A stretch of 64,000 nt of DNA from Sulfurovum lithotrophicum (GTDB lineage: Bacteria > Campylobacterota > Campylobacteria > Campylobacterales > Sulfurovaceae): NCBI RefSeq assembly GCF_000987835.1, contig NZ_CP011308.1, positions 124,001 through 188,000 on the forward strand, given 5' to 3'. The translations under genes and the position numbers were made by a program. A model generated the notes under the pieces. The model did not search any database and was not told the DNA's origin. It was given only the letters and a program-made list of their open reading frames with translations. Positions 9,802 to 37,622 of this stretch are shown one piece after another; the stretch's first letter is position 1; each line of letters starts with the position of its first letter.

Positions 9802-9925
9802 CGTCTATAAATGTGGTATATTTTTCATTCAATACTCCGGCAGTTGCAAACGCAAGCGTCCATTCCATGGGTAGAGTATTTCTTTGTCATATTGGATGAA
9901 AATATTTTTAGAAACTATTGCAAAC

Positions 9926-10591: not shown

Positions 10592-10597
10592 GGAAAC

Positions 10598-14095: not shown

Positions 14096-17000
14096 TCAGG
14101 CTCCTTCTTTTTCTGTATGTGCGTTTTTGGATTTTAACAAGAACCATTCTGTTATTTTGTAAAGTTCGGTCACGACAAAGATCGGCAGGGAGATCTCAAA
14201 GATCAGAAGCCAGTCTTTCCAGCCAAGCGGAACAGTATGCAGGGCCTCCTGCAGAAATGGTACATAAACAGCTGCCACCTGTAAGGAGACCGTCGTAATC
14301 CAGGCGGCAATAAGCCATTTATTGCTGAAGAACCCCATGGTATATATAGGAGCATGCAGTGAACGGTAGTTGAATACATTCATTTTCTCCAAAATGATGA
14401 TGGCTGTGAAAGCAGCGGTCTGTGCCAGCCCAATGGCCTGTGCTTCAGGCAGGCCGGAACTGAGATAATGATGGAATATCCATAGTGTTGCGCCACCGAT
14501 ATAGCCGCCTAACAGTATAATCATGATGATGCCTCTGTACTGAAGGAAAGACTCACTGCTGGCCCTTGGCGGACGATGCATGACACCCTTTTCTGCTTTT
14601 TCCATGCCCAATGCTACAGCGGTCATCCCGTCTGTGACCAGGTTCATCCATAAGATCTGCACAGGCAGGAGGATCAGCGGTCCGCCCAAAAGAATATTGA
14701 CAAAGATCGCTATGACCTCTCCGATATTCGATGAGAGCAGATAGGTGACAAATTTCTTGATGTTATCATACTGTCTGCGTCCTTCTCTGACCGCATTGAT
14801 GATGGAGGCGAAATTATCATCGAGCAGTATCATGTCTGCTGCACCTCTAGCGACATCTGTTCCTCTCATTCCCATGGCAATACCGATATCGGCTTTTTTA
14901 AGTGCGGGTGCATCATTGACCCCGTCACCGGTCATGGCCGTAACCAGGCCTTCATCCTGCAGTATTTTGATAATTCGCATTTTGTCTGCCGGGGTGGTTC
15001 TGGCAAAAATCGCTCCTTCATGTATCGCATTTTTCAAAGCGTCATCATCAAGCGTATCCAGTTGGCTGCCTGTAATACCATGCCTGGCATCCAAACCTAC
15101 CTCTTTTGCGATCGCCATGGCAGTAAGCGGTGCATCTCCGGTGATCATCACTACATTGATACCTGCCGTTCTGGCTGTTTGTATGGCATGATGTACTTCG
15201 GGTCTTGGCGGATCGATGATGCCGACGACTCCCAGGAGAACCAAATCGTTCTCCACCGCATCGGCATCGAGCTTGATCCCTTTAGGCAATACACGTTTTG
15301 CCAGTGCGAGTGTACGCAGGCCGTTTCGTGCCAGTTGGCTGTAGGCATCCTCGAAGGCTTTTTTCTTCTGTGCATCAAGCGCTTGTACTTTTTCCCCGTC
15401 GAAATAGTAGTTCGAACGTTCCAGGAGCACTTCGGGTGCTCCTTTGATATAGGCGATATTTTTACCTTTTTCCTGAACGATGACACTCATGCGTTTTCTC
15501 TGGGAATTGAAAGAGAACTCCGTGGTGATCTTTTCGTCCACTTCCGGCGTCAGCCAGGCTTTATAGGCTGCAACGATCAATGATGCTTCAGTGGGTTCTC
15601 CGGTGATCTTCCATGCATCCTTTTCCCTGGTCAGCCCGGCATGGGTACAGATAAGCCCGGTTTTGAGCAGTTCGATCAGATCCTGTCTCTTTTTGTAATC
15701 CACCTTTTTCTTATCTTTTTCAAAGTGGCCTTTTGGATCATATCCGCTTCCTGTTACATCTATTTCACCGCTAAAAAGCCATACTTTTTGCACGGTCATC
15801 TGGTTTTGTGTAAGGGTTCCTGTTTTATCGGTACAGATGACGTTGGCACTGCCCAGTGCTTCGGCTGCCTGCAAACGGCGGAGCAGGGCTTTTTGACGGA
15901 CCATCGCTTTGACACCGAGTGCCAGTGTAATGGTCACAACTGCCGGCAGACCTTCAGGTACGACCGCTACGGCGAGAGAGATGCCCGTTAGAAACATTTC
16001 CATCATATCTTTGCCCAGAAGGTATCCGATGATTGCGACAAACGCTGCGATGGCAACAGAGAAGATCCCGAGTTTTTTACCCAAAACTGCCAGTTTTTTC
16101 TGTAAAGGTGTCTGTGTGCTGCCTACCTCACTGGTCATTTTTGCGATCTTTCCAAATTCAGTTTGCATACCCGTAGCAACGACGATACCTTTGGCATAGC
16201 CATTGACCACATTGGTGCCCATCCATGCCATGGAGCTCCGTTCACCCAATGCACTCTTTTGAGGTACAGCTTTTATGTTTTTCAAAGAAGCAACGGACTC
16301 TCCGGTCAGCGCGGACTCGTCTACTTTGAGGTTGACTGCCTCAATGAGCCGGAGATCTGCCGGTATTTTATCTCCGATTTCGAGAAAAACGATATCACCG
16401 GGGACCAGTTTGGTTGAATCGATCTCCTTTTTCTCTCCGTCTCTTAAAACCTTACAGCGTAGGGAAAGCATTTTTTGGAGTGCTTCTATGGCTTTTTCAG
16501 CTTTGTATTCCTGAATAAAGCCGAGAATACCGTTCAATATGACAATGATCATAATAGTGACAGCATCTCCTATCTCTCCTATGGCAAAGGAGATCGCCGC
16601 GGCAATAAGCAGGATGATGATCAGAACATCCGTAAACTGCCTGAAGAGTATCCAGTACCATTTTTCTTTGTGTACTGAACGGATACGGTTTGGACCATAG
16701 TGTGCCTGACGCTGAACTATTTCATCTTTGCTTAGACCTTTTTGCGGATCAGTACCCAGGGCCTTGCATACCGTGTCGAACTTTTGGGCATACCACGGTA
16801 TTTGTTCTTTTTCAGGTTTTTCTATTTTTTTCTTTTTTGTTTTGGATACAGCAGACTGCATCAGTGTTTCTTTCCAGAACGAAACCATCAGGGAGAAAAG
16901 AAGCGGTACTACGATCGTAGAGACTGAAGAGGCTGCTACCAGTGCAGTAAAGAGCTGGGTGTCGATCAATTGTGCATCGAGTAAAAGTTTTGCCACGATG

Positions 17001-18067
17001 ATCTCGGTAGTAAGCCTGGCGTTCAGTCCGATCCCGATCGTCCATGCTTCTTTGCTGTTAAGCTGTCCCATAGGGACCATGAGAAAAATACCGATGATCT
17101 TACCTACGAAGGCAGCCAGAAAAAGCAGGATCGCAAGTTCAGGTGCCTTAAACATACCACTGAGATCGACACTCATACCTATCCATAAGAAAAAGACAAT
17201 ACCAAAAAAGCCGTAGCTTACGGCTCGCACTGCCTTGGTGGCCTGAACGCCTACATCCCCTGCCGTATTAAAGACCGGACGCATTAGCATACCTGCCACA
17301 ATGGCACCTACAACCAAACCTAGATCCGTTCGTTCTGCAAACCCGCCAAAAACAAAAAGAACGATGATCATTAATAAAATGAGATTGGCAACCCGTATCT
17401 TTAACCAGTGCGAGAGAGGAAGAAGGATCCATTTACGTACCACCCAGGCAGCAGCAATAAAGATGATGATATTGAGTACAAGGTCGATTATCGCAGTGGA
17501 ATCATTTGTGGCCAACCCGCTTTTATCGCCAATCCACAGAGAAACAAAAGCGATAAGGAAGACTTCTATCACATCATCAAGGACACCCGCACCTACAATA
17601 TAGTTGCCAACCTTGGTTCTGATAAGATTGAATTCATCCAGTATGGGTACTATCACCGCTTCGGCTGTGGGCATACGGGTCAATCCCACCACAAAAGATA
17701 CCATCCAGTCATACCCCAGGTAGCGCATCACTGCTATACCCAGTGCAAAAGGGATGATGGTGTTCAATACCGTGGCTATTATGATGTTTTTGCTTTGCGA
17801 ACGCATCTCCTGCATATCGATCTGCAGACCGATAAAGAAAAGTAAAAAAAGTACGCCCAGTTCGGCAAGCAGGGTAAAGATCTCATTGAAGATACCATGG
17901 GAAAGCAAATCACCGATCGGGGTATAGTGTGCACCCATGGCGACAAAAAGTGCAGCCAGAATACCCGGGATCCTCAAACGTTCCATAAAACCGGCCAAAA
18001 TATAGGTCAGTCCGAAAAGCAGTGCCAACAACAATAAAAATTGCCCTACTATCTCACTGGTCATCAT
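14096..18067 (-). CDS. Fusion protein: CPA2-type cation/proton antiporter plus P-type cation ATPase
   Basis: One open frame of 1323 codons joins two transporters. Residues 1 to about 400 are a Kef/CPA2-like antiporter domain with roughly twelve membrane segments (GILAALFVAMGAHYTPIG, GLTRMPTAEAVIVPIL, GAGVLDDVIEVFLIAF). A basic linker (KTKKKKIEKPEKEQ) follows. Residues about 425-1310 are a complete type II P-type ATPase: TGES in the actuator domain, the PEGLPAVVTITLAL helix, the phosphorylated Asp in CTDKTGTLTQNQ, a KGAPE nucleotide motif, and TGDGVNDAPALKKADIGIAMG. The ATPase part looks most like SERCA/PMR1-type Ca2+ or Na+ pumps. TATAAT (18094-18099, minus) and AAGG lie before the ATG. mgtC/DUF4010 follows. 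Confidence 0.93.
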   Translation of the reverse strand: MMTSEIVGQFLLLLALLFGLTYILAGFMERLRIPGILAALFVAMGAHYTPIGDLLSHGIFNEIFTLLAELGVLFLLFFIGLQIDMQEMRSQSKNIIIATVLNTIIPFALGIAVMRYLGYDWMVSFVVGLTRMPTAEAVIVPILDEFNLIRTKVGNYIVGAGVLDDVIEVFLIAFVSLWIGDKSGLATNDSTAIIDLVLNIIIFIAAAWVVRKWILLPLSHWLKIRVANLILLMIIVLFVFGGFAERTDLGLVVGAIVAGMLMRPVFNTAGDVGVQATKAVRAVSYGFFGIVFFLWIGMSVDLSGMFKAPELAILLFLAAFVGKIIGIFLMVPMGQLNSKEAWTIGIGLNARLTTEIIVAKLLLDAQLIDTQLFTALVAASSVSTIVVPLLFSLMVSFWKETLMQSAVSKTKKKKIEKPEKEQIPWYAQKFDTVCKALGTDPQKGLSKDEIVQRQAHYGPNRIRSVHKEKWYWILFRQFTDVLIIILLIAAAISFAIGEIGDAVTIMIIVILNGILGFIQEYKAEKAIEALQKMLSLRCKVLRDGEKKEIDSTKLVPGDIVFLEIGDKIPADLRLIEAVNLKVDESALTGESVASLKNIKAVPQKSALGERSSMAWMGTNVVNGYAKGIVVATGMQTEFGKIAKMTSEVGSTQTPLQKKLAVLGKKLGIFSVAIAAFVAIIGYLLGKDMMEMFLTGISLAVAVVPEGLPAVVTITLALGVKAMVRQKALLRRLQAAEALGSANVICTDKTGTLTQNQMTVQKVWLFSGEIDVTGSGYDPKGHFEKDKKKVDYKKRQDLIELLKTGLICTHAGLTREKDAWKITGEPTEASLIVAAYKAWLTPEVDEKITTEFSFNSQRKRMSVIVQEKGKNIAYIKGAPEVLLERSNYYFDGEKVQALDAQKKKAFEDAYSQLARNGLRTLALAKRVLPKGIKLDADAVENDLVLLGVVGIIDPPRPEVHHAIQTARTAGINVVMITGDAPLTAMAIAKEVGLDARHGITGSQLDTLDDDALKNAIHEGAIFARTTPADKMRIIKILQDEGLVTAMTGDGVNDAPALKKADIGIAMGMRGTDVARGAADMILLDDNFASIINAVREGRRQYDNIKKFVTYLLSSNIGEVIAIFVNILLGGPLILLPVQILWMNLVTDGMTAVALGMEKAEKGVMHRPPRASSESFLQYRGIIMIILLGGYIGGATLWIFHHYLSSGLPEAQAIGLAQTAAFTAIIILEKMNVFNYRSLHAPIYTMGFFSNKWLIAAWITTVSLQVAAVYVPFLQEALHTVPLGWKDWLLIFEISLPIFVVTELYKITEWFLLKSKNAHTEKEGA

Positions 18068-18183
18068 GTAGCCTTGTTTTAATGTTTTGATTTATTATAC
18101 CACTGATTGGGATAAATATATAAACCATAGCTTAAAGAATAAGGTGTACAATTGACTTATCAATACAATAAAAAGGAATGTAT

Positions 18184-19584
18184 ATGGCTACAGTCGTCTC
18201 CTACGGTGCAGCAGAAGTGGTGACGGGGTCCTGTCACCTGTTTACGATAGACGGAGGTCCCCGTATCCTTGTGGATTGCGGGATGTTTCAGGGTCAGGAA
18301 GAGGAGCGTAACTACGGTCCTTTTGATTTTAACCCTTCCGAAGTGGACTATCTGTTGGTCACCCATGCCCATCTGGACCATGTCGGGCGCATACCGAAAC
18401 TGGTGAAAGAGGGCTTTACCGGAAAGATCTATGCGACCCATGCGACACATGACCTTGCCGAGATCATTCTGCTTGACAGTGCCAAGATCATGAAGGAAGA
18501 TTTTAACACCAAATACAAAAAGGCCCAGCGGCAGGGAAAAGAAGAGGGTGTCATGGAACCGTTATATGTAGAAGCCGATGTGGAGGATGTGTTCGAGTTT
18601 GACTGGCACTATCCGGAGTATGACAAGTCTTTCACTCTGGAGGATGATATAGAGATCACTTACCGGGATGCCGGCCATATCCTCGGGGCCGCTTTTATTG
18701 AAATACGCTATAAAGAGAATGGTGTGGACCATACCATAGTTTTCTCCGGAGATATAGGCAACGATACCGAGATCGTCATGAAAGACCTCGCTCCATGTAC
18801 CCATGCCGACTATCTGTATGTAGAGTCCACCTACGGCGACCGTGACCACCAAGGTGTAGAGGATACTGTTACGGAATTCAAAAGCGTGATCATCAAGACC
18901 ATGAAAGACTGGGGAAATGTCATTATCCCCTCGTTCGCCGTGGAACGGACGCAGGAACTTCTCTGCATCCTGAAGCAGATGCACAGGAGAAAAGAGTTGC
19001 CGCAGTGCAAAATATTTGTTGACAGCCCTATGGCGACCCGTGCAACAGAAGTGTACAGGAACTATTCCGAACTGTTGAGTTCCGAGTGTCAGGAGATCAA
19101 GAAAGAAGATGGAACGATTTTCGATTTTGAGAACCTTGTCTATACCCTTGATGTAGAAGCTTCCAAAGCCATCAACGACATGGATACCCGTGCGATCATC
19201 ATTGCGGGCAGCGGTATGTGCAACGGCGGCAGGATACTGCATCATTTCAAGAACCGTTTATGGAACAAGAAGAATGCCGTCATTTTTGTAGGGTATCAGG
19301 CCGTCGGTACTTTGGGAAGACATATCGTCGACGGAGCACGATGGGTGAAGATCTACAATGAAGATATCCTCATCAAGGCGAGTATCCATACCATTAACGG
19401 ATTCTCCGCCCATGCCGACCAGAAGGGCATTGTCAAATGGATCTCACAGATCGAAGGCCTTAATAGTATCTATCTTGTGCATGGAGAAGAGGACAAGCAG
19501 GTGATCCTCCGAGCTGTACTTGAAAATGAACTGCATGCCAAAGCACATATCGTGGAGCCTGAAGAAGTGATCTATCTGGCATAG
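18184..19584 (+). CDS. Beta-CASP metallo-beta-lactamase protein (RNA nuclease family, KH-less)
   Basis: A 466-residue member of the metallo-beta-lactamase/beta-CASP family, probably an RNA-processing exo/endonuclease. The zinc site is THAHLDHVGRIP near residue 60, with further ligands in DAGHILGAAF and FSGDIGNDT. The beta-CASP motifs are VDSPMATRATEVY, AGSGMCNGGRILHH and GFSAHADQKG. The ATG at 18178 touches the AAGG; the ATG at 18184 has it six bases away and is preferred. It is divergent from the antiporter/ATPase fusion. Ysh1/CPSF-like MBL proteins of this size are common in bacteria, but their substrates are mostly unknown. Confidence 0.9.
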   Translation: MATVVSYGAAEVVTGSCHLFTIDGGPRILVDCGMFQGQEEERNYGPFDFNPSEVDYLLVTHAHLDHVGRIPKLVKEGFTGKIYATHATHDLAEIILLDSAKIMKEDFNTKYKKAQRQGKEEGVMEPLYVEADVEDVFEFDWHYPEYDKSFTLEDDIEITYRDAGHILGAAFIEIRYKENGVDHTIVFSGDIGNDTEIVMKDLAPCTHADYLYVESTYGDRDHQGVEDTVTEFKSVIIKTMKDWGNVIIPSFAVERTQELLCILKQMHRRKELPQCKIFVDSPMATRATEVYRNYSELLSSECQEIKKEDGTIFDFENLVYTLDVEASKAINDMDTRAIIIAGSGMCNGGRILHHFKNRLWNKKNAVIFVGYQAVGTLGRHIVDGARWVKIYNEDILIKASIHTINGFSAHADQKGIVKWISQIEGLNSIYLVHGEEDKQVILRAVLENELHAKAHIVEPEEVIYLA

Positions 19585-19700: not shown

Positions 19701-20423
19701 GTGGTCAAGCATCGTAATCTGGTCTCCTTCATCATTACCACACTTCTCTATGCCCTGCTTTTTGGGGGCTATTTCTACCTGATGCGTACCTATATCATTG
19801 CGGACCAGGCAGCGCAGGACAGTGCCATCCAACTCTGCCTGAGCGAATTCGTCCCTGAAGTGGTTCCTGAAGCCCAGGAGGCAGAAGAGGAACCTGTTGT
19901 AGAAGAAGAACCTGAACCTGAACCAGAGCCTGAACCGATAGTTAAAGAGGAGCCGGTGGTTGAAAAGGTCATCCCGGAACCTGTCAAACCTAAAGTACTT
20001 CCTGTACCTGAAGTAAAAAAGCCAAAGCCAAAAAAGAAAGAGATCAAAAAGAAGAAAAAAGTCAAGAAAAAAAAGGTAAGGACACGAACGGCACAAAGCA
20101 GTAGGGTAGGGGTCAAACGCCGGGGCAGTGGACATGCCAGTGTTTCACAGAAAAACCGTTTTCTATCTACGGTAAGGCAACGGATCAACCAGAACAAAAG
20201 CTATCCGCGTATTGCCAAAAGACGAGGTATGCAGGGGTCGGTTAAAGTACGTTTCACCATACTTTCCAACGGACATGTCGGTAACATTTCGATCAGCGGT
20301 CCAAAGGTCTTCCATTCTTCGGCACGCAGGGCAGTCGAAAAAGCGTTCCCCCTCAGCACGAAGCATATTCCTGTCAGCCTCCCCAAAACGGTAAATTTAA
20401 CGCTTCGGTATCAGTTAAGATAA
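19701..20423 (+). CDS. tonB: TonB energy-transducing protein
   Basis: A 240-residue TonB carrying proton-motive energy from the inner membrane to TonB-dependent receptors. It starts at GTG 19701 after AAGGGAAGTA. One N-terminal membrane segment (about 8-28) is followed by a long acidic then basic Pro-rich rod (EPEPEPEPEP about 73-82, then KPKPKKKEIKKKKK about 112-126). The C-terminal domain has SYPRIAKRRGMQGSVKVRF and ends LPKTVNLTLRYQLR. No exbB/exbD lie beside it. It is followed 96 bases later by a copper-type receptor, so it probably serves that receptor. Confidence 0.9.
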   Translation: MVKHRNLVSFIITTLLYALLFGGYFYLMRTYIIADQAAQDSAIQLCLSEFVPEVVPEAQEAEEEPVVEEEPEPEPEPEPIVKEEPVVEKVIPEPVKPKVLPVPEVKKPKPKKKEIKKKKKVKKKKVRTRTAQSSRVGVKRRGSGHASVSQKNRFLSTVRQRINQNKSYPRIAKRRGMQGSVKVRFTILSNGHVGNISISGPKVFHSSARRAVEKAFPLSTKHIPVSLPKTVNLTLRYQLR

Positions 20424-20519
20424 CGATTTTTGCTCGTTTCCTTATAAAAAACATAAACTTAACACATAATTAACAGAAGCATGCCACAATATCTAAAAAC
20501 AATTTTGGAGGAGTGATAT

Positions 20520-22532
20520 ATGAAAAAGGGAATCTACCTGTCTTTGGTCTGTGCAGCATCCCTGTATGCGGCAGAAGCTGAGCTGGGAACGATCGATGTG
20601 GAAGCGAAGGTCGATACGGAAGTACATAAAGATGTGCATGGAGATGATATTAAATCTGCCGATGTAGCAGAAGCGTTGATGAAGCAGTCGCCTTCCGTGA
20701 TGTTGGTGCGAAGAAGTGGGATCGCAAACGATATTATTGTCCGTGGACAGAAGAAGGACAATATCAATGTTACAATAGATGGCGCGAAGATCTACGGTGC
20801 CTGTCCGAACAGGATGGACCCTCCCATTTCACATGTCCTGGCAAACAATATTGACTATATCACTATAGATGACGGTCCTTTTGATGTAGAGAGTTTTGGT
20901 GCATTGAGCGCCAATGTGGATGTTGAAACACTAAAACCGACCCAGGAATTTCATGGAGATGCCGCTTTGAATTTCGGTAGCTGGAATTACAAAAAAGCCT
21001 CTGCGATGGTCAGTGGCGGTACGGAGCGTATCAGGTTTCTTCTGAGTGCTTCGGCTGAACGTGGCGGACAGTATGAAGATGGTGACGGCAATGATTTTGC
21101 ACAGCAGGTAGATAACTATATCAATAACAATCTCAACGGGAATATGGCACATGACAAAAAGTTGAAAGGACAGGCATTCCTGCCTCAATATCGTGATATG
21201 GATGCTTTTACAAAGAAGACCGTTCTTGCCAAGGTGTTCTGGGATATTACGGATAACCAGCAGCTGAAACTGAGCTATACGGGCAACAGAAGTGATGATG
21301 TCCTCTACCCGACGACACCAATGGATGCCCTGTATGATGATTCCAATATCTATAATGCGGAATATGTCCTCAACGAACTGGGCCGCTACTCCAAAGAGCT
21401 TGATATACAGCTTTACAAGTCAGATGTGGACCATCCTATGAGCAATATGTACAGAAAAGCTTCCAGTATGATGCTGATGAAAAACTGGCTGACGACAGAT
21501 ACGCAGGGAGCCAAGATCAAAAACAGATTCGATCTTGATAAGCACGAGATTACAGTGGGAATTGACTACAGTTTGCGTAACTGGAATGGGGCGTATTATG
21601 GAAAGAACGATATGTACAAAGGGGTGAGCATACCGGATGTTGACACCAGAAATATCGCTTTTTTTACCAAAGACAAGATACATTTCGACAAGTTTGATGT
21701 CGATCTTGGCTTGAGATATGACGATACATCGGTAGAACCCGGTCTGGGAACATTGCAAAGTAATGACTACAACGCGTTGAACGGAAATATATTGTTAACC
21801 TACCATATGGATGAAAAGACGAAAATCTTTGGAGGCGTAGGCCACTCATCAAGAGTACCGGACGGACGGGAACTCTATTTTCAGAAAGCGGGCAAGGTAC
21901 TTGGAACCCCTGATCTGGACCTTGTGACCAATACAGAATTTGACATTGGTGGAGAGACACAGTTTGAAGATGCAACACTCAAAGCAAAGTTTTTCTACAG
22001 TAAACTGGGAGATTTTATCTTCTACAATGCTGATAAAATGATCAACCGTTTTGAAAATATGGATGCGACGCTGTACGGTGTTGAAGTAAGCGGAAGCTAT
22101 ATCGTGACGGATACCCTGTATCTTGACGGGGCGCTCTCCTTTCAGAAAGGTGAAAAGAAGAACCCTCTTAGCGGACAGACCGGAACCAATATGCCTGAGA
22201 TCCCTCCAATGAAACTGGTAGCGGGGATCAACTTTGAAGAGCCTGGTGACTATCTGCTTCGTGCCGAAGTCATTGCGGCAAGTGCATGGGATGACTATGA
22301 TGCAGAGAACGGTGAGCAGTACCTTCCCGGATATGCCGTGCTTAATCTCAAAGGAAGCAAAACGTTCGCGGATCACTTTGAAGTAACGGTAGGTGTAGAT
22401 AACCTTTTTGACAAAACCTATGCCGTTTCGAACACCTATGAGGACCTGACACTTATTTCAGGTGGAGGTGAAGTAATGCTTATGAATGAACCAGGACGCT
22501 ATATTTATACAAACCTGAGTTATAAGTTTTAA
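20520..22532 (+). CDS. TonB-dependent copper receptor, OprC/NosA-like
   Basis: A 670-residue outer-membrane receptor with signal peptide (about 1-18), plug domain (about 25-150: DIIVRGQKKDNINVTIDGAK) and 22-strand barrel ending LSYKF. The key clue is GACPNRMDPPISHV: CxxxM (C95, M99) followed by DPP matches the plug motif of OprC/NosA, where the Cys-x3-Met pair binds copper. NosA is needed for copper loading of N2O reductase in pseudomonads. Here the gene sits between tonB and nosZ, which supports a copper supply role. AGGAG precedes the ATG. No NosR gene is present. Confidence 0.85.
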   Translation: MKKGIYLSLVCAASLYAAEAELGTIDVEAKVDTEVHKDVHGDDIKSADVAEALMKQSPSVMLVRRSGIANDIIVRGQKKDNINVTIDGAKIYGACPNRMDPPISHVLANNIDYITIDDGPFDVESFGALSANVDVETLKPTQEFHGDAALNFGSWNYKKASAMVSGGTERIRFLLSASAERGGQYEDGDGNDFAQQVDNYINNNLNGNMAHDKKLKGQAFLPQYRDMDAFTKKTVLAKVFWDITDNQQLKLSYTGNRSDDVLYPTTPMDALYDDSNIYNAEYVLNELGRYSKELDIQLYKSDVDHPMSNMYRKASSMMLMKNWLTTDTQGAKIKNRFDLDKHEITVGIDYSLRNWNGAYYGKNDMYKGVSIPDVDTRNIAFFTKDKIHFDKFDVDLGLRYDDTSVEPGLGTLQSNDYNALNGNILLTYHMDEKTKIFGGVGHSSRVPDGRELYFQKAGKVLGTPDLDLVTNTEFDIGGETQFEDATLKAKFFYSKLGDFIFYNADKMINRFENMDATLYGVEVSGSYIVTDTLYLDGALSFQKGEKKNPLSGQTGTNMPEIPPMKLVAGINFEEPGDYLLRAEVIAASAWDDYDAENGEQYLPGYAVLNLKGSKTFADHFEVTVGVDNLFDKTYAVSNTYEDLTLISGGGEVMLMNEPGRYIYTNLSYKF

Positions 22533-22538
22533 TACTGT

Positions 22539-22583
22539 GCAGGGTGAGCTGATGCTCAGCCGCATCCCTGCCATTGTTTTTTT
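22539..22583 (+). terminator. Hairpin terminator after the copper receptor (REP-like ends)
   Basis: GCAGGG (22539-22544) pairs with CCCTGC (22566-22571), and TGAGC pairs with GCTCA across a TGAT loop. A run of seven T follows (22577-22583). The GCAGGGTG start resembles the family B repeats. Confidence 0.65.
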
Positions 22584-22693
22584 GTTCTGATTCCTGCATA
22601 CTGATCCCGACAATCCTTTTTTCTTCAAATATTTTAAAATACCAGTAAAAAAGATATCCCTTTCTACCCAAATGTTAAATTAGTGTTAAATTC

Positions 22694-22736
22694 TTGACGC
22701 AAATCAATTATCTTAATAATAATAATAAGCTATAAT
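22694..22736 (+). promoter_or_regulatory. FNR/CRP-type box and -10 of nosZ
   Basis: TTGAC-GCAA-ATCAA (22694-22707) is one base off the FNR consensus TTGAT-N4-ATCAA. TATAAT lies at 22731-22736. If transcription begins about 7 bases after the -10, the box is centred near -42, the class II activator position. The rest of the 261-bp gap holds the terminator above and a strong AGGAGG before nosZ. Confidence 0.72.
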
Positions 22737-22793: not shown

Positions 22794-25394
22794 ATGAGCT
22801 ACAAGTTAAGCAAATTGACATCGCTTTTTCTTGGGTCTGCATTGAGTGTATCTACACTTTTTGGTGCAAGTGCCCTGGATAATGTGATGAAAGAGAGAGG
22901 TTTGACGCAGGCTGACCTATTGGCAGCGGCTAAAACCTATACACCAAGCGGCGGACGTGACAAATATATCGTATTCTCTTCGGGCGGTCAGTCCGGACAG
23001 ATCATGGTGTATGGTGTTCCGTCAATGAGAATTCTCAAATACATCGGTGTATTTACGCCGGAACCTTGGCAGGGTTGGGGTTATGATGATGACACCAAAA
23101 AAGTCCTTGCCCAGGGTAATATCAGAGGAAAGAAGATCACGTGGGGTGACACACACCACCCAGCGCTTTCCGAAACAAACGGTAGATATGACGGTAAATG
23201 GCTGGTTATCAATGATAAAGCCAATCCACGTCTTGCTGTTATTGATTTGAAGGACTTCGTTACCAAGCAGATTGTTGTGAACCCTGTTTTCAAATCTGAC
23301 CATGGTGGAGCATTCTTTACACCGAATTCAGAGTATATTCTGGAAGCGTGTCAGTATGGAGCACCGCTTGACAATAACTACCATCCTATCGAAGAGTATA
23401 AAGAGACTTATCGTGGTGGTGTAACAGTTTGGAAGTTCGACCCGAAAATCGGAAGAATCGATCCGAAAAAATCGTTTACGATCGAAATGCCTCCTTATAT
23501 GCAGGATCTTTCCGATGCAGGTAAAGAAGCAAGTTTTGGTTGGGGATTCACCAACTCATTCAACTCCGAGCTATATACAGGTGGTATTGAAAAAGGTCTT
23601 CCTCCATTCGAAGCGGGTATGAGCCGTAACGATACGGATTTCCTTCATGTGTATAACTGGAAAAAACTTGCGGAACTTGCAAAAGATCCTAAAAATGTAA
23701 AAATGATCAATGGTACCAGAGTCGTTCCTATGGAAGTTGCGATCAAGAATGATGCGCTTTTCCTTATTCCTGAGCCAAAATCACCTCATGGTGTCGATGT
23801 ATCACCTGACGGTAAAAGTATTGTTGTCTGTGGTAAACTCGATACACATGCGACAGTGTATGATTTTGACAAGATACAGGATGCGATCAAGCATAAAGCG
23901 TATGTAGGGAAAGATCCGTACGGTATTCCTATTCTTGATCTGAAGAAAACAATGCACTGTCAGGCTGAGTTGGGCCTCGGGCCATTACATAACCAGTATG
24001 GTAAGAACTGGAAAGACGGTGAGATCTATACGTCTCTCTATGTTGACAGCCAGGTTGTCAAATGGAACTACAAGACCTGTAAAGTGGAAGACAGACAGAA
24101 TGTTAACTACAACATCGGTCACCTCTGTGGTATGGAAGGTAAAACGGAAGATCCTCAGGGAGATTACATCATCGCATTGAACAAACTTGCGATCGACAGA
24201 TTTAACGAGATCGGGCCATTGCATCCTCAAAACCACCAGTTGATCGATATTCGTGGTAAAAAAATGCAACTGCTCTACGATATGCCTGTTCCATTGGGTG
24301 AGCCTCACCAGGCAGTAGCCATCAGAGCAAGCAAACTGAAGACAGAAGTACGTTATAAAATGGGTACGAATGCCTTTACAGGTAAAGTACATGAAGGTAA
24401 GACACTTGCCGGTCAGGAAAAGATCGTAAGAAAAGGAAACCATGTCTATGTTTATGGAACAGTGGTCAGATCACACATCAACCCTGAACATGTAACAGTG
24501 AACAAAGGTGATACAGTAACCTTCTATCTTACAAACCTTGAAAGAGCTGAAGATGAGACACATGGTTTCACAGTAGATACGTACAATGTACATACATCTC
24601 TTGAGCCAGGTAAAACAGTTGCTGTAACATTCAAAGCAGATCTTGAAGGTGTATTCCCTTACTACTGTACAGAATTCTGTTCTGCACTGCACCTTGAGAT
24701 GATGGGTTACCTTTTGGTCAAAGATCCGAACAAGAAGTATACAGCAGCCAAGAAACTTAAAATGGCAGCAATGAGTCCTGAGCAGCTCAAAAAAGAGTAT
24801 GACCAGACTGTAGCAGTGAACAATGCGACAGACAAAGTCATCCAAAGTGTTGTGAAGTTCCTAAAAGAGAATCATTATGAAAAATATCCGACTATCAAAG
24901 CACTGGTAACAGATGCACTTGATCAGTATGGTAAGATCGCTGAACAGAAGAAAAAATCAGATGAAGCTGTTAAAGCAGGAGACCTTGATAAAGCAATTCT
25001 GTTCGAGAACATGATCTGGCAATATATGGTTAAGACGGCGGACGTTGGTATCAGAGCGAAAGACCTCTTGGTCAAAAAAGTAGCTAAACCTATGAGCCCT
25101 GCTGCTAAGCGTGGTGAAGCAGCGTATCTTGAAGGTGGATGTAACGGATGTCACGTTATCGGTAAAGTATCTTCAGGTCCAGACCTGACAGGTGTACTCC
25201 AGAGACACGAGAATGGTGAAGCATGGGCGAAACAGTGGATCATGCATCCTGAAAAGATGTATGATGATGACTATATCAAGTCTATGATCAACTACTTCAA
25301 CCTGCGTATGCCTAACCAGGGTATGACAGAAGAACAGACCAACGATATTATCGAATATCTTAAGTGGATCGACGAGAACGCAAACCTCTTCTAA
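22794..25394 (+). CDS. nosZ: Nitrous oxide reductase NosZ, clade II, with C-terminal cytochrome c domain
   Basis: Periplasmic copper enzyme reducing N2O to N2. The 866 residues begin with a Sec-type signal peptide (no twin arginine), a mark of clade II. The beta-propeller holding the CuZ site has His-rich DTHHPAL, SDHGGAF, SPHGVDVS and LHNQYGKN-type motifs. The CuA cupredoxin domain has CTEFCSALHLEM (C625, C629, H633, M636). After a helical linker, a monohaem cytochrome c domain is added (CNGCH at 783-787, probable Met ligand in NLRMPNQGM), as in Wolinella-type cNosZ. TAGGAGG precedes the ATG. Confidence 0.98.
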   Translation: MSYKLSKLTSLFLGSALSVSTLFGASALDNVMKERGLTQADLLAAAKTYTPSGGRDKYIVFSSGGQSGQIMVYGVPSMRILKYIGVFTPEPWQGWGYDDDTKKVLAQGNIRGKKITWGDTHHPALSETNGRYDGKWLVINDKANPRLAVIDLKDFVTKQIVVNPVFKSDHGGAFFTPNSEYILEACQYGAPLDNNYHPIEEYKETYRGGVTVWKFDPKIGRIDPKKSFTIEMPPYMQDLSDAGKEASFGWGFTNSFNSELYTGGIEKGLPPFEAGMSRNDTDFLHVYNWKKLAELAKDPKNVKMINGTRVVPMEVAIKNDALFLIPEPKSPHGVDVSPDGKSIVVCGKLDTHATVYDFDKIQDAIKHKAYVGKDPYGIPILDLKKTMHCQAELGLGPLHNQYGKNWKDGEIYTSLYVDSQVVKWNYKTCKVEDRQNVNYNIGHLCGMEGKTEDPQGDYIIALNKLAIDRFNEIGPLHPQNHQLIDIRGKKMQLLYDMPVPLGEPHQAVAIRASKLKTEVRYKMGTNAFTGKVHEGKTLAGQEKIVRKGNHVYVYGTVVRSHINPEHVTVNKGDTVTFYLTNLERAEDETHGFTVDTYNVHTSLEPGKTVAVTFKADLEGVFPYYCTEFCSALHLEMMGYLLVKDPNKKYTAAKKLKMAAMSPEQLKKEYDQTVAVNNATDKVIQSVVKFLKENHYEKYPTIKALVTDALDQYGKIAEQKKKSDEAVKAGDLDKAILFENMIWQYMVKTADVGIRAKDLLVKKVAKPMSPAAKRGEAAYLEGGCNGCHVIGKVSSGPDLTGVLQRHENGEAWAKQWIMHPEKMYDDDYIKSMINYFNLRMPNQGMTEEQTNDIIEYLKWIDENANLF

Positions 25395-25408
25395 GATCTA
25401 CATTCTAT

Positions 25409-25427
25409 AAAGGGCGTAAAGCCCTTT
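25409..25427 (+). other. Hairpin just after nosZ
   Basis: AAAGGGC and GCCCTTT arms with loop GTAAA, 15 bases after the nosZ stop. No T run follows, so it is more likely a partial terminator or an mRNA 3'-end stabiliser that raises NosZ relative to the downstream genes. Confidence 0.5.
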
Positions 25428-25475
25428 GTAGCCTACATTATAATTCCCACTTATATTTTAAAAATATAATTTAGC

Positions 25476-25517
25476 TTGATAGATATCAAGTCTATTCATA
25501 GAATAAAACGGTAGAAT
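25476..25517 (+). promoter_or_regulatory. Perfect FNR-type box and -10 of nosB
   Basis: TTGAT-AGAT-ATCAA (25476-25489) matches the FNR consensus exactly. TAGAAT at 25512-25517 is a likely -10. The box centre is 41.5 bases from the expected start near 25524. The nosB ATG follows about 70 bases later. Confidence 0.75.
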
Positions 25518-25594
25518 ATATGAAAGATATATAGGTATCTCAAAAAACTTGATCTATTCAAGTTTTTTGGTATATCTATTAAGAAAGGATACAC

Positions 25595-26377
25595 ATGAGT
25601 TCTTTGGCAAAGTCAAGAATATTTACACTGCTGGCATTGGGCATTCTGCTTTATTGGTTCGTAATCCCCGCGGTGTTCACGCACAATGTCGTCGAGATGG
25701 GAAGGCAGGGCAAGGGAGACCAGCTCTCCGACCTTACCATCAAGACCTGGGATTATTATCAGAAGGGCAGGTATGTTTCGCCCAATATCCCCAAAGAGGA
25801 TGCGAACAATCTGAAGAAAATGATCGAGGATGATATGGAGTTGAATGTCGTGACCGCACCGATCTGGTATGTGTCGCTCGAAGCACCGAATTACCCTAAA
25901 GATGCATTCCCGGAAGGAATCCCGGTCTTTTACCATTTTGACGGATTTAGTGGCGATGTTCATGAAATGAATACGATCAACCACTATATCGGAATGGATC
26001 CGATGGAGAGAGGGGCACCATATCTTCGTATGTTGGCTCCATATGCTTTGATCTTCGTAGCGTGGCTGATGGCGATGTTCATGATCTACAACAACAGGAT
26101 CTTCAATCTTCTGATGCTGATCCCTGTGGCACTACCGATCGTTTTCATAGGCTTCTACTCCTATTGGCTCTATTGGTTCGGACATCATATGCATGATTGG
26201 GGAGCCTTCAAGATCAAACCCTTCACCCCTACGGTCTTCGGGGACGGTAAAGTCGCACAGTTTACGACGCACTCTTACCCAACACTTGGTTTCTGGCTCC
26301 TGGTAGCTATCTCTGTGTTGAGTATTTTGGCACTGGCGGCAAAACGTAAATATCAGAAAAGCGAACAAGCAGCCTAA
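25595..26377 (+). CDS. nosB: NosB membrane protein
   Basis: A 260-residue integral membrane protein found next to clade II nosZ genes. An N-terminal membrane segment (about 10-30) is followed by a periplasmic region of about 110 residues (with WYVSLEAPNYPKDAFPEG) and four more membrane segments from about residue 145 on. A His-rich stretch WFGHHMHDWG lies between the last segments. The exact role is unknown in any organism; the gene is a marker of clade II clusters. AAAGGA precedes the ATG. It has its own FNR-type promoter, and nosD starts one base after its stop. Confidence 0.85.
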   Translation: MSSLAKSRIFTLLALGILLYWFVIPAVFTHNVVEMGRQGKGDQLSDLTIKTWDYYQKGRYVSPNIPKEDANNLKKMIEDDMELNVVTAPIWYVSLEAPNYPKDAFPEGIPVFYHFDGFSGDVHEMNTINHYIGMDPMERGAPYLRMLAPYALIFVAWLMAMFMIYNNRIFNLLMLIPVALPIVFIGFYSYWLYWFGHHMHDWGAFKIKPFTPTVFGDGKVAQFTTHSYPTLGFWLLVAISVLSILALAAKRKYQKSEQAA

Positions 26378-26378
26378 G

Positions 26379-27602
26379 ATGTTACAGAAGATCATAGCAT
26401 TCACTATCGCAATCAGTTCACTGTCTCTGGCAGGTAATGTATTGCAGGATGCTATTGATCAGGCAAAACCGGGCTCCCGTCTGGAGTTACCGGCGGGGCT
26501 TTATCATGGAAATATCGTGATAAACAAACCGCTTATCATAGACGGGAAAGACCAGAAAGCCATCATCGAAGGTGATGGAAAAGGTACTGTGGTGACCATC
26601 ACGAGTTCCGGTGTTACCGTGAAAAACCTAACCATCAGACACAGTGGCGAAGAACATGAAAAGGTCGATGCTGGTATTTCCATGAAAAAAACGACACAGT
26701 GTCATATAGAAAATAACAAAATCGTTGATTGTCTGTTCGGGATCGATATGTCCGAAGTGAGTAGTTCGGAGATTAATGATAATTATATCGAGTCCAAACC
26801 GTTTGACCTCGGTATCCGGGGAGATGGTATCCGCCTGTGGTACAGTAATGACAACCATCTGAGCGGCAACCATCTTTACAAGTCACGTGATTTCGTTGTA
26901 TGGTATTCACATGGAAACCTCATAGAAAAGAACCGAGGTGAGTACGGCAGATATTCACTGCATTTTATGTATACCGGAAAGAATATTGTCAAAGACAATG
27001 TCTACAAACATAATTCAGTAGGTATTTTCTTTATGTATTCGCAGGATACGGTGGCTACTGGAAATCTGATACAAAATTCTCTGGGAACAACAGGGCTTGG
27101 GATCGGTATGAAAGATGCAAGCAATTTTGTACTTAAAGACAATACGATCATATATTGTGCCAGAGGATTGTTCATCGACCGGTCACCCTATGAGCCTGAT
27201 ACGACAAACCTTATTGAAGGCAATCGTATTATTTACAACAGTGAAGGGATACACTTCCATTCTTTAAGTCTCCACAATACGTTCGTAAATAATATTTTTA
27301 AAGGAAATATTGAAAATGTAATGAATGATTCGTATAATACAAGAATAACAGAGAATGAGTTTGACGGGAACTACTGGGACGACTATGAAGGGTTTGACAA
27401 GAATGGTGACGGTATAGGGGATGGTCCCTATAACTATTATGCGTATGCAGATAAAGTATGGCTTTTAAATCCGAATATTAAATTCTTTTACGGATCTCCC
27501 GTGATCTCGATATTGAATTTTCTGGCAAAGCTGGCTCCTTTTTCGGAGCCGGTACTGCTTTTAAGCGATAAGCATCCCAAAATGCATGAAGGACAGGTAT
27601 AA
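26379..27602 (+). CDS. nosD: NosD periplasmic copper-site maturation protein
   Basis: A 407-residue right-handed parallel beta-helix with signal peptide (about 1-18). It shows repeated Asn/Asp-Gly strands and the CASH/NosD pattern (LIEKNRGEYGRYSLHFMYTG core, FDGNYWDDYEGFDKNGDGIG near the C-terminus). NosD acts with the NosF/NosY ABC transporter in assembling the CuZ sulfide-copper centre of NosZ. The C-terminal hydrophobic stretch (about 370-390) may anchor it. Its stop overlaps the nosG ATG by one base. Confidence 0.95.
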   Translation: MLQKIIAFTIAISSLSLAGNVLQDAIDQAKPGSRLELPAGLYHGNIVINKPLIIDGKDQKAIIEGDGKGTVVTITSSGVTVKNLTIRHSGEEHEKVDAGISMKKTTQCHIENNKIVDCLFGIDMSEVSSSEINDNYIESKPFDLGIRGDGIRLWYSNDNHLSGNHLYKSRDFVVWYSHGNLIEKNRGEYGRYSLHFMYTGKNIVKDNVYKHNSVGIFFMYSQDTVATGNLIQNSLGTTGLGIGMKDASNFVLKDNTIIYCARGLFIDRSPYEPDTTNLIEGNRIIYNSEGIHFHSLSLHNTFVNNIFKGNIENVMNDSYNTRITENEFDGNYWDDYEGFDKNGDGIGDGPYNYYAYADKVWLLNPNIKFFYGSPVISILNFLAKLAPFSEPVLLLSDKHPKMHEGQV

Positions 27603-28426
27603 TGGAAGAAAAAGTACAGAAAACTATTTCAAAAGAAGAGAAAAAAAGACGCCAGTTCATGAAGCAGGCTGTAGGTCTGGGTGTACTTGGCATAGCTGCA
27701 GCAGGCGGTATCTGGGCGGCAAAGGACTTCAAACTGACAAAGGGACGGCTGCGTCCTCCCGGAGCTGTACCTGAAGAGCAGTATCTTTCAATGTGCATCA
27801 AGTGCGGACAGTGCCTCCAGGTCTGTCCTTATGATTCTATTATGCTGGAAGATATAGATGGGGAAGCAGGTGTTGGAACGGCTTATATCGATCCTCTGGC
27901 AAGGGGATGTTATCTCTGTGAAGCCTTTCCCTGTGTATTGGCATGCCCCACAGGGGCACTCGATCATGAAGCGAACGTGATCGAAAAAGTACACATGGGT
28001 ATGGCAATCGTGGTCAATGAAAGTGCCTGTCTGGCCCTGGATAATAAGAAGGTAACCGATGATATGATCGGACGTATCTATGAGCATACCAAAGTGATCA
28101 GTGATACAGAGCGTCAAAACAGAAAAGTGGTAATGAACCCCAATGATCCTGAAAAAGTAATACTTCAGAAGGAACTGTTGAAAAAACTCAGTGAGCAGGA
28201 AGGTAAAAATTGTAGCCTGTGTGCGGATCTTTGTCCGTTTGAACCTGATCCGAGCCAGGCAATAGGAATGGTGTCAAAAGACGGAGGGCTTTTCCCTGAG
28301 ATACGTGACGCCTGTGTCGGGTGTGGTGCATGTGTAGAACTCTGTCCAACCAAAGTCCTGCAGATACTTCCGTATGCTACCTATGCAGATGTGTATGAAA
28401 AAAATAAAGGAAGTCAAAATGCGTAA
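27602..28426 (+). CDS. nosG: NosG, NapG-like periplasmic ferredoxin
   Basis: A 274-residue iron-sulfur protein with a twin-arginine-type signal (KRRQFMKQAVGLGVLG), so it is folded before export. Four [4Fe-4S] motifs are visible: CIKCGQCLQVCPYD, CYLCEAFPCVLACPTG, CSLCADLCPFEP and CVGCGACVELCPTK. By analogy with NapG/NapH it passes electrons from menaquinol via NosH to the small cytochromes c and NosZ. It starts on the last base of the nosD stop and overlaps nosC1 by 8 bases. Confidence 0.93.
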   Translation: MEEKVQKTISKEEKKRRQFMKQAVGLGVLGIAAAGGIWAAKDFKLTKGRLRPPGAVPEEQYLSMCIKCGQCLQVCPYDSIMLEDIDGEAGVGTAYIDPLARGCYLCEAFPCVLACPTGALDHEANVIEKVHMGMAIVVNESACLALDNKKVTDDMIGRIYEHTKVISDTERQNRKVVMNPNDPEKVILQKELLKKLSEQEGKNCSLCADLCPFEPDPSQAIGMVSKDGGLFPEIRDACVGCGACVELCPTKVLQILPYATYADVYEKNKGSQNA

Positions 28427-28994
28427 TAAAATATTGGTCCTTTCACTGGGAGTCAGCCTGCTTATTTTGACTGGTTGCGGAGAAGAGAAGCCAAAAGAAT
28501 CAGCCGGTAAAGAAGCCAGTGCCAAGGGTATCGTCGTGACTGAAGGTGCTGTGAAAGCCTTGAAAAAAGAAGATGGTTCCAAAGAGAACAGTGGACAGTT
28601 CTACTACTCCTACAATAAAGAAAAAAAAGGCAGTAGTGAATATAATTCTGAAACTTCGAAAGTAAGAACAGAACTTGATGCCTACAGAGATATCAGGTCA
28701 CCGTATGAACGAGTGCAGATCACTCTGATGGTTCAACAGCTCAGCCCGGATTACCGTCTGCTTTGTTCTGCCTGCCATGATGACTATGCCAATGGTGTGA
28801 TCGGACCGGCACTGCTGGATAAGAATGCCACCTTTATCTTTAGCCAGATTAAAGCATTTAAGACTGGAGAAAAAAAGAATGCATTGATGAAAGAACTGGT
28901 GAACCGCATCGATGAGCAAAGACTGCAGGGTATCGCCAAAGAGATAGAAAGATTCAACAGACAAATCAAAGAAATGAGGAGTAAACAGAAATGA
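28419..28994 (+). CDS. nosC1: NosC1 monohaem cytochrome c lipoprotein
   Basis: A 191-residue protein starting at ATG 28419 (AAAGGAAG ahead). The signal peptide ends in a lipobox (ILTGC), so it is probably a lipoprotein. One haem-binding motif CSACH sits in RLLCSACHDDYANGVIGPAL, followed by a helical tail with conserved Lys-rich pattern. It probably carries electrons from the NosGH quinol dehydrogenase towards NosZ. It overlaps nosG (8 bases) and nosC2 (4 bases). No obvious distal Met ligand except ALMKEL. Confidence 0.9.
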   Translation: MRNKILVLSLGVSLLILTGCGEEKPKESAGKEASAKGIVVTEGAVKALKKEDGSKENSGQFYYSYNKEKKGSSEYNSETSKVRTELDAYRDIRSPYERVQITLMVQQLSPDYRLLCSACHDDYANGVIGPALLDKNATFIFSQIKAFKTGEKKNALMKELVNRIDEQRLQGIAKEIERFNRQIKEMRSKQK

Positions 28995-29524
28995 AACACA
29001 TATTAGCTGCAATCGTAACCGTACTTGCATTGGGAGCAATGTTCATGGTCTATCAGTCAGACAGAGAAGTGAACAAGCTCGAAGAGATCCAGAAAATGAT
29101 CGCCAAAACACAGATAAAAGTAAAGCTAGATACGGGTACACAGCTTGTAACACAGGAAGCTCCTGTAGAAAAAATGAGCAATGCCGATATCGAAAAAGAA
29201 CAGGCAAAGAAAAAGAAAGAGCTGGATGAGAAACTTCAGGCTCTGAAAAATAAAGCTGGAAATGTCGCAGCATTCAGTGTAAGCCCGCTTTATAAGCAGA
29301 AATGTTCTTCCTGTCACGGAGTGAACGGTGAAGGGATCATTGGTCCAAAGCTGGTTGGACTGAGTGCTGAGACCGTGCATAAGGATCTGACAGATTTCAA
29401 ATCCGGGAAAAGAAAGAATTACGTGATGTATGGATTGCTCAGCAAAATGGATGAGAGCCAAATGCAGGCACTTTCAGACGAGATCGGCTCATTTGAGCAG
29501 AAGCTTAAAGAGCAGCAACAGTAA
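28991..29524 (+). CDS. nosC2: NosC2 monohaem cytochrome c
   Basis: A 177-residue protein with an N-terminal membrane anchor (about 4-22) and a charged coiled-coil-like stretch (about 55-90). The haem motif CSSCH lies in KCSSCHGVNGEGIIGPKL. NYVMYGLLSKMDESQMQALSDEI supplies the likely axial Met. It resembles NosC1 over the haem domain (GVIGPAL/GIIGPKL), so the two look like a duplicated pair. It starts within the nosC1 stop (ATGA overlap). Confidence 0.9.
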   Translation: MKHILAAIVTVLALGAMFMVYQSDREVNKLEEIQKMIAKTQIKVKLDTGTQLVTQEAPVEKMSNADIEKEQAKKKKELDEKLQALKNKAGNVAAFSVSPLYKQKCSSCHGVNGEGIIGPKLVGLSAETVHKDLTDFKSGKRKNYVMYGLLSKMDESQMQALSDEIGSFEQKLKEQQQ

Positions 29525-29531
29525 AAGCCAA

Positions 29532-29548
29532 AGCAGTTCCCAACTGCT
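29532..29548 (+). other. Intercistronic hairpin between nosC2 and nosH
   Basis: AGCAGTT-CCC-AACTGCT, perfect 7-bp arms, in the only sizeable gap of the core operon. No T run, so it is probably an mRNA-stability or processing element. Confidence 0.4.
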
Positions 29549-29572
29549 TAGCAGCTTTATAAAGGATAGCAA

Positions 29573-30484
29573 ATGGACAGATATAACGGTAGTGTCAGGG
29601 AGCTGATCAATGCACCGCTCCTGAGTACCTTGTATTATAAGACGCAGGCTGGCAAGTTCAGACTGACACTTAGGGCATGGAGATGGTTGAGTATTATCAT
29701 TATCAACCTTCTTTTCTTCCTCTCTTTCCATATCGACCTGCAGATGTTGGAAGGTACACTGAACGGATCGAGACTCTTTGGATTTCACTTGATCGACCCT
29801 TTCACCGCGCTGGAGATCTTTGCTGCAGAGCACCATTTTCATACGAATGTGATCATCGGGTCTGTAACGCTGATCGTATTTTATTTTCTAGTTGGAGGAA
29901 AAGCATACTGCTCATGGGTATGTCCTTACGGACTTCTGAGTGAAATAGGAGAGCGTATCCATCAGATACTGGTACGAAAGAAGATCATCAAAGAGCACAA
30001 ATTCACGCCGAATGTGCGTTTTGTATTTTGGGCGATCTTTTTGGCTGCAGCAGCCATAGATGGTTATCTGGTTTTTGAAGTACTCAATCCAATCGGCTAT
30101 ATCAGCCGTGCGATCACGTATGGATGGAGTCTGGCTTTGGTATGGGTACTGGTCGTACTTGCTATAGAGATTTTTTACTCGAGAAGAGCATGGTGCAAAT
30201 ATGTGTGCCCTGTAGGAACGACCTACAATATGCTTGGCTGGATCAGCATGACAAAAGTCAAATGGGATATGAACAAGTGTGACCACTGCGGTGCCTGTCT
30301 GAATGCCTGTTTTGAGGATCATGTACTGGAATTTATCAAGCCAAAGTATGACAAGGAGCGTAAAGAGAAAGGCGTTGAGACACAGCTGGTGGTCAATGGC
30401 GACTGTACTCTCTGCGGACGATGTTTTGATGTATGCCATACCGATGCATATAATTATGACTTTAGATTGAAGGATATGGTATAG
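29573..30484 (+). CDS. nosH: NosH, NapH-like quinol dehydrogenase membrane subunit
   Basis: A 303-residue membrane protein with four to five membrane segments, two CxxxCP motifs on the cytoplasmic side (CSWVCPYG near 114, CKYVCPVG near 212) and two C-terminal [4Fe-4S] clusters (CDHCGACLNACFED, CTLCGRCFDVCHTD). NapH-type proteins oxidise menaquinol and hand electrons to the NapG partner, here NosG. AAAGGATAG precedes the ATG. nosF begins on the base after the stop. Confidence 0.92.
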   Translation: MDRYNGSVRELINAPLLSTLYYKTQAGKFRLTLRAWRWLSIIIINLLFFLSFHIDLQMLEGTLNGSRLFGFHLIDPFTALEIFAAEHHFHTNVIIGSVTLIVFYFLVGGKAYCSWVCPYGLLSEIGERIHQILVRKKIIKEHKFTPNVRFVFWAIFLAAAAIDGYLVFEVLNPIGYISRAITYGWSLALVWVLVVLAIEIFYSRRAWCKYVCPVGTTYNMLGWISMTKVKWDMNKCDHCGACLNACFEDHVLEFIKPKYDKERKEKGVETQLVVNGDCTLCGRCFDVCHTDAYNYDFRLKDMV

Positions 30485-32413: not shown

Positions 32414-32422
32414 GGAGTGTTG

Positions 32423-34641: not shown

Positions 34642-34644
34642 ACC

Positions 34645-37617: not shown

Positions 37618-37622
37618 GAAAT

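Follow-up and report, generated by a model that had tools for sequence, protein, structure and literature searches.

A TonB-paired, OprC-like receptor beside nosZ in Sulfurovum lithotrophicum and a direct repeat common to both genes

The reduction of nitrous oxide (N2O) demands much copper, and how clade II N2O reducers acquire that copper is poorly known. A stretch of 64,000 nucleotides of the chromosome of the sulfur-oxidizing bacterium Sulfurovum lithotrophicum (NZ_CP011308.1, positions 124,001 to 188,000; hereafter the window, whose own numbering is used throughout) poses the question directly, for a tonB gene, a gene for a TonB-dependent receptor and nosZ, the gene for N2O reductase, stand there in a row. 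Does the receptor belong to the copper supply of the neighboring enzyme? Our analysis indicates that the tonB-receptor pair probably provides the outer-membrane and energy-coupling components of a system for copper acquisition that is co-regulated with nosZ. This reading rests on gene content, conserved ligands, a fold match, the pairing of tonB with the receptor, and the conservation and position of a direct repeat. The coordinates and order of the three genes given in a first-pass annotation held; its observation was confirmed, and its interpretation was partly supported. The shared repeat and a two-component system linked to it are new here, whereas the receptor and TonB are of kinds already known. 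No description of this repeat or regulon, or of a Sulfurovum TonB-receptor pair beside nosZ, was found in the open-licence literature of PubMed Central (PMC), outside which most subscription journals lie. The features on which the argument turns are listed first; loci (L) and genomes (G) carry our own numbers.

19701-20423, + strand: tonB paired with the putative copper receptor (GTG start, 240 amino acids; PF03544)
20459-20475, + strand: direct repeat TTAACACATAATTAACA, 45 base pairs (bp) before the receptor start
20520-22532, + strand: OprC-like TonB-dependent receptor with predicted copper site C95, M99, H305, M307 (670 amino acids; PF07715, PF00593)
22536-22583, + strand: terminator-like hairpin, then T7 (22577-22583); -18.2 kcal/mol, z -2.49 against shuffles
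22673-22689, - strand: direct repeat TTAACACTAATTTAACA, upstream of nosZ
22694-22707, + strand: FNR/Nss-type box TTGACGCAAATCAA, upstream of nosZ
22794-25394, + strand: clade II nosZ (TIGR04246)
33845-33861, + strand: third direct repeat, upstream of the NosL/ABC module

The receptor, its predicted copper site and its TonB

The plug motif CPNRM, followed by DPP, was borne out by translation at receptor residues 95-99. Plug (PF07715) and barrel (PF00593), the latter of the 22-strand type, both scored above their Pfam cut-offs, the best curated model was TIGR01778 (OprC/NosA, TonB-copper; 184.7 bits), and the best solved-structure relative by sequence was OprC (6fok, E 1.5e-25). The copper ligands of OprC are C143, M147, H323 and M325, as stated in passages of PMC8610252. 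C95 and M99, which the first-pass annotation had put forward as a copper site, align with the first two of these; H305 and M307, the barrel half (H305-P-M307) that it had missed, align with the other two. In addition, M268 aligns with OprC M286. The ligand set (CxxxM-HxM) was kept in 109 of 110 aligned receptors, a set that includes the window's own and five duplicate contigs. The sole exception was L069, in which G replaces C95 and the other three ligands are kept, possibly through a sequence error.

Structure modelling, which had been proposed as a check on the site, pointed the same way. The AlphaFold2 model of the receptor (mean predicted local distance difference test (pLDDT) score 83.5, predicted template modelling (pTM) score 0.83) matched OprC chains first: these were the top 13 structural matches (Z 38.7, root-mean-square deviation 2.5, 588 residues), ChuA was the next family (Z 36.9), and Foldseek gave 4.5e-42 for OprC vs. 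1.4e-34 for PhuR. Two values speak against the assignment. The 184.7 bits fall far under the TIGR01778 cut-off of 472.45, and identity to OprC is about 21%. Because the cut-off was not reached, we call the receptor OprC-like rather than OprC; the earlier label of an OprC/NosA-like copper receptor was thus upheld by four ligands and the closest fold, but not by the model score.

Haem receptor models also matched the receptor (TIGR01786, 133.8 bits) and haem receptors come next after OprC in the fold list, which would suit a receptor for another ligand, be it zinc, haem or a chelate. However, the OprC-type CxxxM-HxM site is invariant, L069 aside, copper gave the best model and the best structure alike, and the neighbors and presumably co-regulated genes are copper-linked. 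We regard another ligand as very improbable, and the zinc- or haem-receptor reading was dropped since curated models and fold matches favor copper. The receptor is supported as an OprC-like copper receptor candidate with all four ligands, and its chemistry, which we hold to be very likely as proposed, is the best supported step of the mechanism set out below. A genome-wide family search returned three receptor barrels, two TonB_C genes and two ExbD-family genes. One of the other two receptors lies beside a binding protein and an ABC ATPase and the other beside apparent thiamine genes (both by eye). Because these neighbors are of other types, the window's receptor is the only OprC-like one found in the genome (G000), where a single OprC-like receptor stood among the matches listed.

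The TonB protein carries a clear C-terminal domain (PF03544, 48.3 bits; cut-off 24.6), and its gene travels with the receptor gene. Eighty loci, the best 80 of 124 receptor loci, were examined. In all 35 nearest loci (L038-L072; 54-80% identity) tonB lay on the same strand within 1 kilobase (kb) upstream of the receptor; it was upstream in none of the remaining 45, five of which have fewer than 400 bases upstream, and in nine of 29 further loci outside the 80. Close kin without tonB at the receptor include G215 and G232, of the same genus. These counts support the tonB-receptor pair as an older, conserved unit in which TonB is evolutionarily paired with the receptor. Two of the nearest loci, L063 and L068, are Sulfurovum-like but come from records under the titles Clostridia bacterium and Candidatus Endonucleobacter; these contigs were probably sorted into the wrong genome.

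The exbB and exbD genes are absent at the tonB-receptor locus, as the first-pass annotation stated. This lack is likely a secondary state because 11 of the 35 nearest loci have exbB-exbD in front of tonB-receptor, giving the order exbB-exbD-tonB-receptor. An exbB-exbD pair lies about 620 kb from the locus (G000:C1:764491, L006), beside a gyrA-like gene (by eye). The encoded proteins are 66% (ExbB) and 70% (ExbD) identical to those of Sulfurovum exbBD-tonB-receptor loci.

The direct repeat and the transcription units

The receptor and nosZ are quite likely under shared control, as the direct repeat TTAACA-N5-TTAACA suggests. The complete, 2.22-Mb genome that holds the window contains exactly four copies, and a reversed-pattern control gave 0. 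Three of the four lie in the window block, against an expectation of 0.41 matches for the whole window if a single mismatch is tolerated. The gene behind the fourth encodes a membrane protein of the DsbD_2 family whose tail is rich in Cys. Among the 80 loci (1.25 Mb) there were 61 exact repeats, whereas the reversed pattern gave 0 and other spacings gave 0 to 3. Of the 61, 41 stood before receptor genes, 7 before tonB, 4 before nosZ and 3 before NosL-like genes, and 6 could be assigned to none of these. A scan upstream of the receptor covered 74 of the 80 loci. In the Sulfurovum clade, 32 of 35 loci had an exact repeat no more than 200 bp upstream of the receptor, as did seven of 39 other loci (shuffled, 0.0%); with one mismatch allowed the counts were 34 of 35 and 20 of 39 (shuffled, 0.4%).

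The repeat was also surveyed in 26 whole genomes, which, like the three sets of 20 regions used in this study, were selected by us. These genomes held 84 sites, and the repeat lay no more than 450 bp upstream of 15 of 25 receptors and seven of 20 nosZ genes, where 0.03 is expected from density. It was present in 12 of 20 nosZ upstream regions examined, representing both NosZ lineages, and before six of 30 DsbD_2 homologs. In 20 other selected regions, 13 repeat targets were copper- or TonB-linked (exbB, other TonB-dependent receptors, NosL, PCuAC, SCO1, a COX1-family oxidase subunit and OmpR-type regulators), four were ambiguous and three had no such link. The L133 site precedes another TonB-dependent receptor. 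In L211 (2562-5333, G018) a DsbD_2 gene lies directly behind an OprC-like receptor, an independent link between the two. A conserved direct repeat thus stands at a fixed place before its targets, as in an OmpR-type regulon; regulators of the OmpR/PhoB family typically use direct repeats of 11 bp.

Shared control does not require a shared transcript. The terminator-like hairpin with T7 follows the receptor gene, and nosZ has its own promoter region; a single tonB-receptor-nosZ operon is therefore unlikely and was dropped as a candidate, and the receptor and nosZ are probably separate transcription units. Taken alone, the fold evidence for the hairpin is modest: it was not among the matches of a consensus terminator scan, and a stretch of L120 with nearly the same sequence folded without significant structure (z -0.25). 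The promoter region of nosZ holds the box TTGACGCAAATCAA, an exact match to TTGA-N6-TCAA, which is the consensus given for Campylobacteria in PMC11539149. FNR/Nss-type boxes occurred in 14 of the 20 nosZ upstream regions examined. The earlier claim that copper import forms part of the same block as nosZ therefore gains an upstream repeat common to both genes, but the two probably belong to separate units.

The nos slot and a candidate regulator

Adjacency to nosZ, by comparison, is rare. We surveyed 248 genomes of the order, counting a receptor match as strong at E under 1e-40 and nosZ when over its cut-off. The receptor was present in 136 genomes and nosZ in 94; 72 had both, 64 the receptor only and 22 nosZ only. 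The two genes were neighbors in four of the 72 (G000, G195, G129 and G140), all of one genus. They shared a contig in 28 of the 72 (counted by eye among the matches listed), the rest being drafts with the genes on separate contigs. The tonB-receptor-nosZ order did not hold up as a wider trait, and nosZ adjacency as a general trait was dropped on these counts. Nor is the receptor NosZ-specific, since 64 of the 136 receptor genomes lack nosZ and 22 of the 94 nosZ genomes lack a strong receptor match. In the 35 nearest genomes nosZ was over cut-off in nine and partial in one more, and stood beside the receptor in five of these ten.

Such counts would suit a receptor that serves general copper use, mainly a cbb3-type oxidase, its place beside nosZ being neutral and without functional tie. 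Besides the genomes with only one of the two genes, 25 of the 35 nearest genomes (incomplete drafts among them) have no nosZ beyond weak matches, adjacency is scattered on a receptor tree of 76 rows, where the trait changes seven times, and the pseudomonad precedent invoked in the first-pass annotation, a NosA-type receptor that supplies copper to NosZ, is contested in the discussion of it in PMC8610252. We nevertheless consider a neutral position improbable. The rare direct repeat stands before both the receptor and nosZ; two different NosZ lineages occupy one slot; other linked arrangements exist in G025 (12.5 kb, opposite strands) and G222 (9.4 kb, same strand); and across the order genomes with one of the two genes tend to have the other as well (odds ratio 4.6, p 6e-8, our Poisson and Fisher values ignoring kinship). 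We retain co-regulation of the receptor with nosZ as the preferred reading. The slot itself is bounded by a two-component system, RR1-HK1 (9884-11455), on the left and by an acpP-fabF-accA-dedA run on the right:

9884-10588, + strand: OmpR-family response regulator RR1, candidate regulator (PF00072, PF00486)
10598-11455, + strand: histidine kinase HK1, 285 amino acids (PF00512, PF02518)
25595-32902, + strand: nos accessory genes B, D, G, C1, C2, H, F, L-like, Y, L
33904-39167, + strand: NosL/ABC module of NosL-like proteins, FtsX permease, LolD-like ATPase and membrane protein
39256-42406, + strand: right flank of the slot, acpP, fabF, accA, dedA

NosZ of the window belongs to clade II, the Sec-dependent type (TIGR04246, 862.4 bits; cut-off 625). 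The names B, C1 and C2 of the accessory genes are those used for Wolinella. The NosL/ABC module holds NosL-family-like genes at 33904 and 34715 (over the Pfam cut-off) and at 38658 (below it), the FtsX permease gene at 35658 and the LolD-like ATPase gene at 36931; its 322-amino-acid membrane protein (37699-38667) had no family match. In the window, as in G195 and G265, the acpP run comes after the whole nos block; in 15 of the 35 nearest loci acpP or fabF lies within 3 kb downstream of the receptor. NosL-like genes directly follow the receptor in six loci (L042, L051, L056, L062, L063 and L067), and the genomes of these six gave no nosZ match. In G259 and G260 the nos cluster is flanked by RR1-HK1 on one side and by the NosL/ABC-acpP run on the other, and the receptor is elsewhere. 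The NosZ of the window and that of G265 and G260 fall in two well separated lineages (support 99/95 and 100/99) and occupy the same slot, either by replacement in place or by repeated arrival. Comparison of L121 and L124 with window positions 22794-32902 placed these two distant lineages in one chromosomal slot of different Sulfurovum-like genomes.

Other genes of the window deserve brief mention. A 1323-amino-acid frame (14096-18067) appears by eye to be a fusion, one half resembling a cation/proton antiporter and the other a P-type ATPase. A beta-CASP nuclease gene (18178-19584) lies between accessory genes and tonB; its best NCBIfam model is type VII CRISPR Cas14, at 420.9 bits, well under the cut-off of 800. 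Between the last nosL and a PAS gene, a minus-strand frame (32743-33249) has near-repeated peptide segments, which suggests a short DNA repeat array.

RR1 is a candidate by neighborhood for the regulator that acts on the repeat, and we give it an even chance. Its true start may be downstream of the TTG at 9884. HK1 has two hydrophobic segments, separated by a very short loop, and almost no periplasmic sensor part (by eye). The best RR1 match was taken in each of the 26 genomes, and 18 regions around such matches were examined. In ten of the 18, exbB-exbD directly follows RR1-HK1. In G068 tonB-receptor comes directly after RR1-HK1, in G027 the receptor is its neighbor, and in G018 its run continues to NosL-like genes, FtsX and LolD. 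An RR1 relative in G096 (48% identity) has the repeat just upstream. A different pair, RR2-HK2, as the only candidate regulator was dropped: it was not found at the window locus, to which the search was limited.

Copper as the signal of the regulator is somewhat favored. The repeat could instead serve a regulator of another signal, such as phosphate, oxygen or envelope state, with copper genes as only part of its targets. None of the 25 best curated models for RR1, nor of those for HK1, reached its cut-off; RR1 fitted models of PhoB, RprY and heavy-metal regulators to much the same degree, and some repeat sites precede genes without a copper link, e.g., manC and prs. Against this, each of the four sites in the window's genome stands before a gene linked to copper, NosL or DsbD_2, and elsewhere the repeat precedes PCuAC, SCO1, oxidase, NosL and exbB. 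Another signal is accordingly unlikely in our view, if less so than a neutral position of the receptor.

Proposed copper acquisition and known systems

For copper transport, the identity of the regulator, copper limitation as its signal and the hand-over of copper, we infer the following steps. The receptor would bind copper ions at C95/M99 in the plug and H305/M307 in the barrel, and TonB, powered by ExbB-ExbD encoded elsewhere, would let copper into the periplasm. NosL-type proteins, the FtsX/LolD-type transporter and the DsbD_2 membrane protein may then deliver it to NosZ and haem-copper oxidases. Low copper would activate RR1, be it by direct sensing or otherwise, and RR1 would bind the repeats. 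Because nosZ carries the upstream element of the receptor, one OmpR-type regulator, most likely RR1-HK1, could raise copper import and the copper enzyme together, with the FNR/Nss-type site at nosZ possibly adding an anaerobic or nitrogen-oxide signal.

Several observations weigh against this scheme. Ten of the 25 receptors and 13 of the 20 nosZ genes have no exact repeat within 450 bp, and G025, where nos, exbBD, tonB and the receptor are close together, lacks any exact site. Among the 20 other selected regions, three sites have no plausible copper target and four are ambiguous. Identity to RR1 is only 41-43% for the repeat-bearing regulators in G040, G193, G138 and G171. RR1 also precedes nosZ where the receptor has moved and could be a bystander, and RR2-HK2 is the pair beside the receptor in L076, L090 and others. 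Finally, for Nitratiruptor, also a member of the Campylobacterota, PMC10092412 lists nosZ with the genes that increase upon copper and cadmium stress, a pattern at odds with simple repression by copper there.

A broader proposal is tentative, and we rate it below an even chance: the Campylobacterales may own an undescribed copper-acquisition regulon in which RR1-HK1, ancestrally encoded with an ExbB-ExbD-TonB motor, acts on TTAACA-N5-TTAACA and raises the receptor, the motor, NosL/ABC, DsbD_2, PCuAC, SCO1, NosZ and a cbb3-type oxidase. N2O reduction would then be wired to copper supply, and HK1 might respond to the condition of the transport complex in the membrane and not to copper itself. 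Should the repeat and its regulator prove real, a link between copper supply and N2O loss becomes testable in a dominant group of vent and sediment bacteria, and the old NosA idea, that a copper receptor serves N2O reductase, would gain a regulatory footing outside the pseudomonads.

The locus resembles several known systems in part. As in clade II nos clusters of Campylobacteria, nosZ is accompanied by B, D, G, C1, C2, H, F, Y and L and by Crp/Fnr-type TTGA-N6-TCAA boxes (PMC6279868; PMC11539149). In the passages on such clusters consulted from those two papers, neither the receptor nor the NosL/ABC tail nor the direct repeat appears, and TonB has 0 occurrences in their main texts. Like the OmpR/PhoB-type metal regulons CopRS and CusRS, the proposed system has an OmpR-family regulator with a kinase, metal-transport targets and a direct repeat; unlike them, its targets suggest uptake rather than efflux, and HK1 is almost without a periplasmic sensor part. 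CrtA of Bordetella pertussis, set beside the Sulfurovum receptor by its published description only, is likewise a TonB-dependent copper transporter tied to respiratory copper enzymes. According to passages of that description (PMC12914433), crtA operons include ScoI and PCuAC genes, and CrtA forms a sequence cluster distinct from OprC and imports chelated Cu(II). The closest likeness is to OprC of Pseudomonas aeruginosa and NosA of P. stutzeri, with which the Sulfurovum receptor has in common the TonB-dependent receptor fold, the CxxxM-HxM ligands and a possible link to NosZ. For NosA, a later knockout left NosZ activity and copper content unchanged, as cited in PMC8610252. Unlike OprC and NosA, the Sulfurovum receptor is encoded with tonB, and in its kin with exbBD too, and it has a cis element in common with nosZ.

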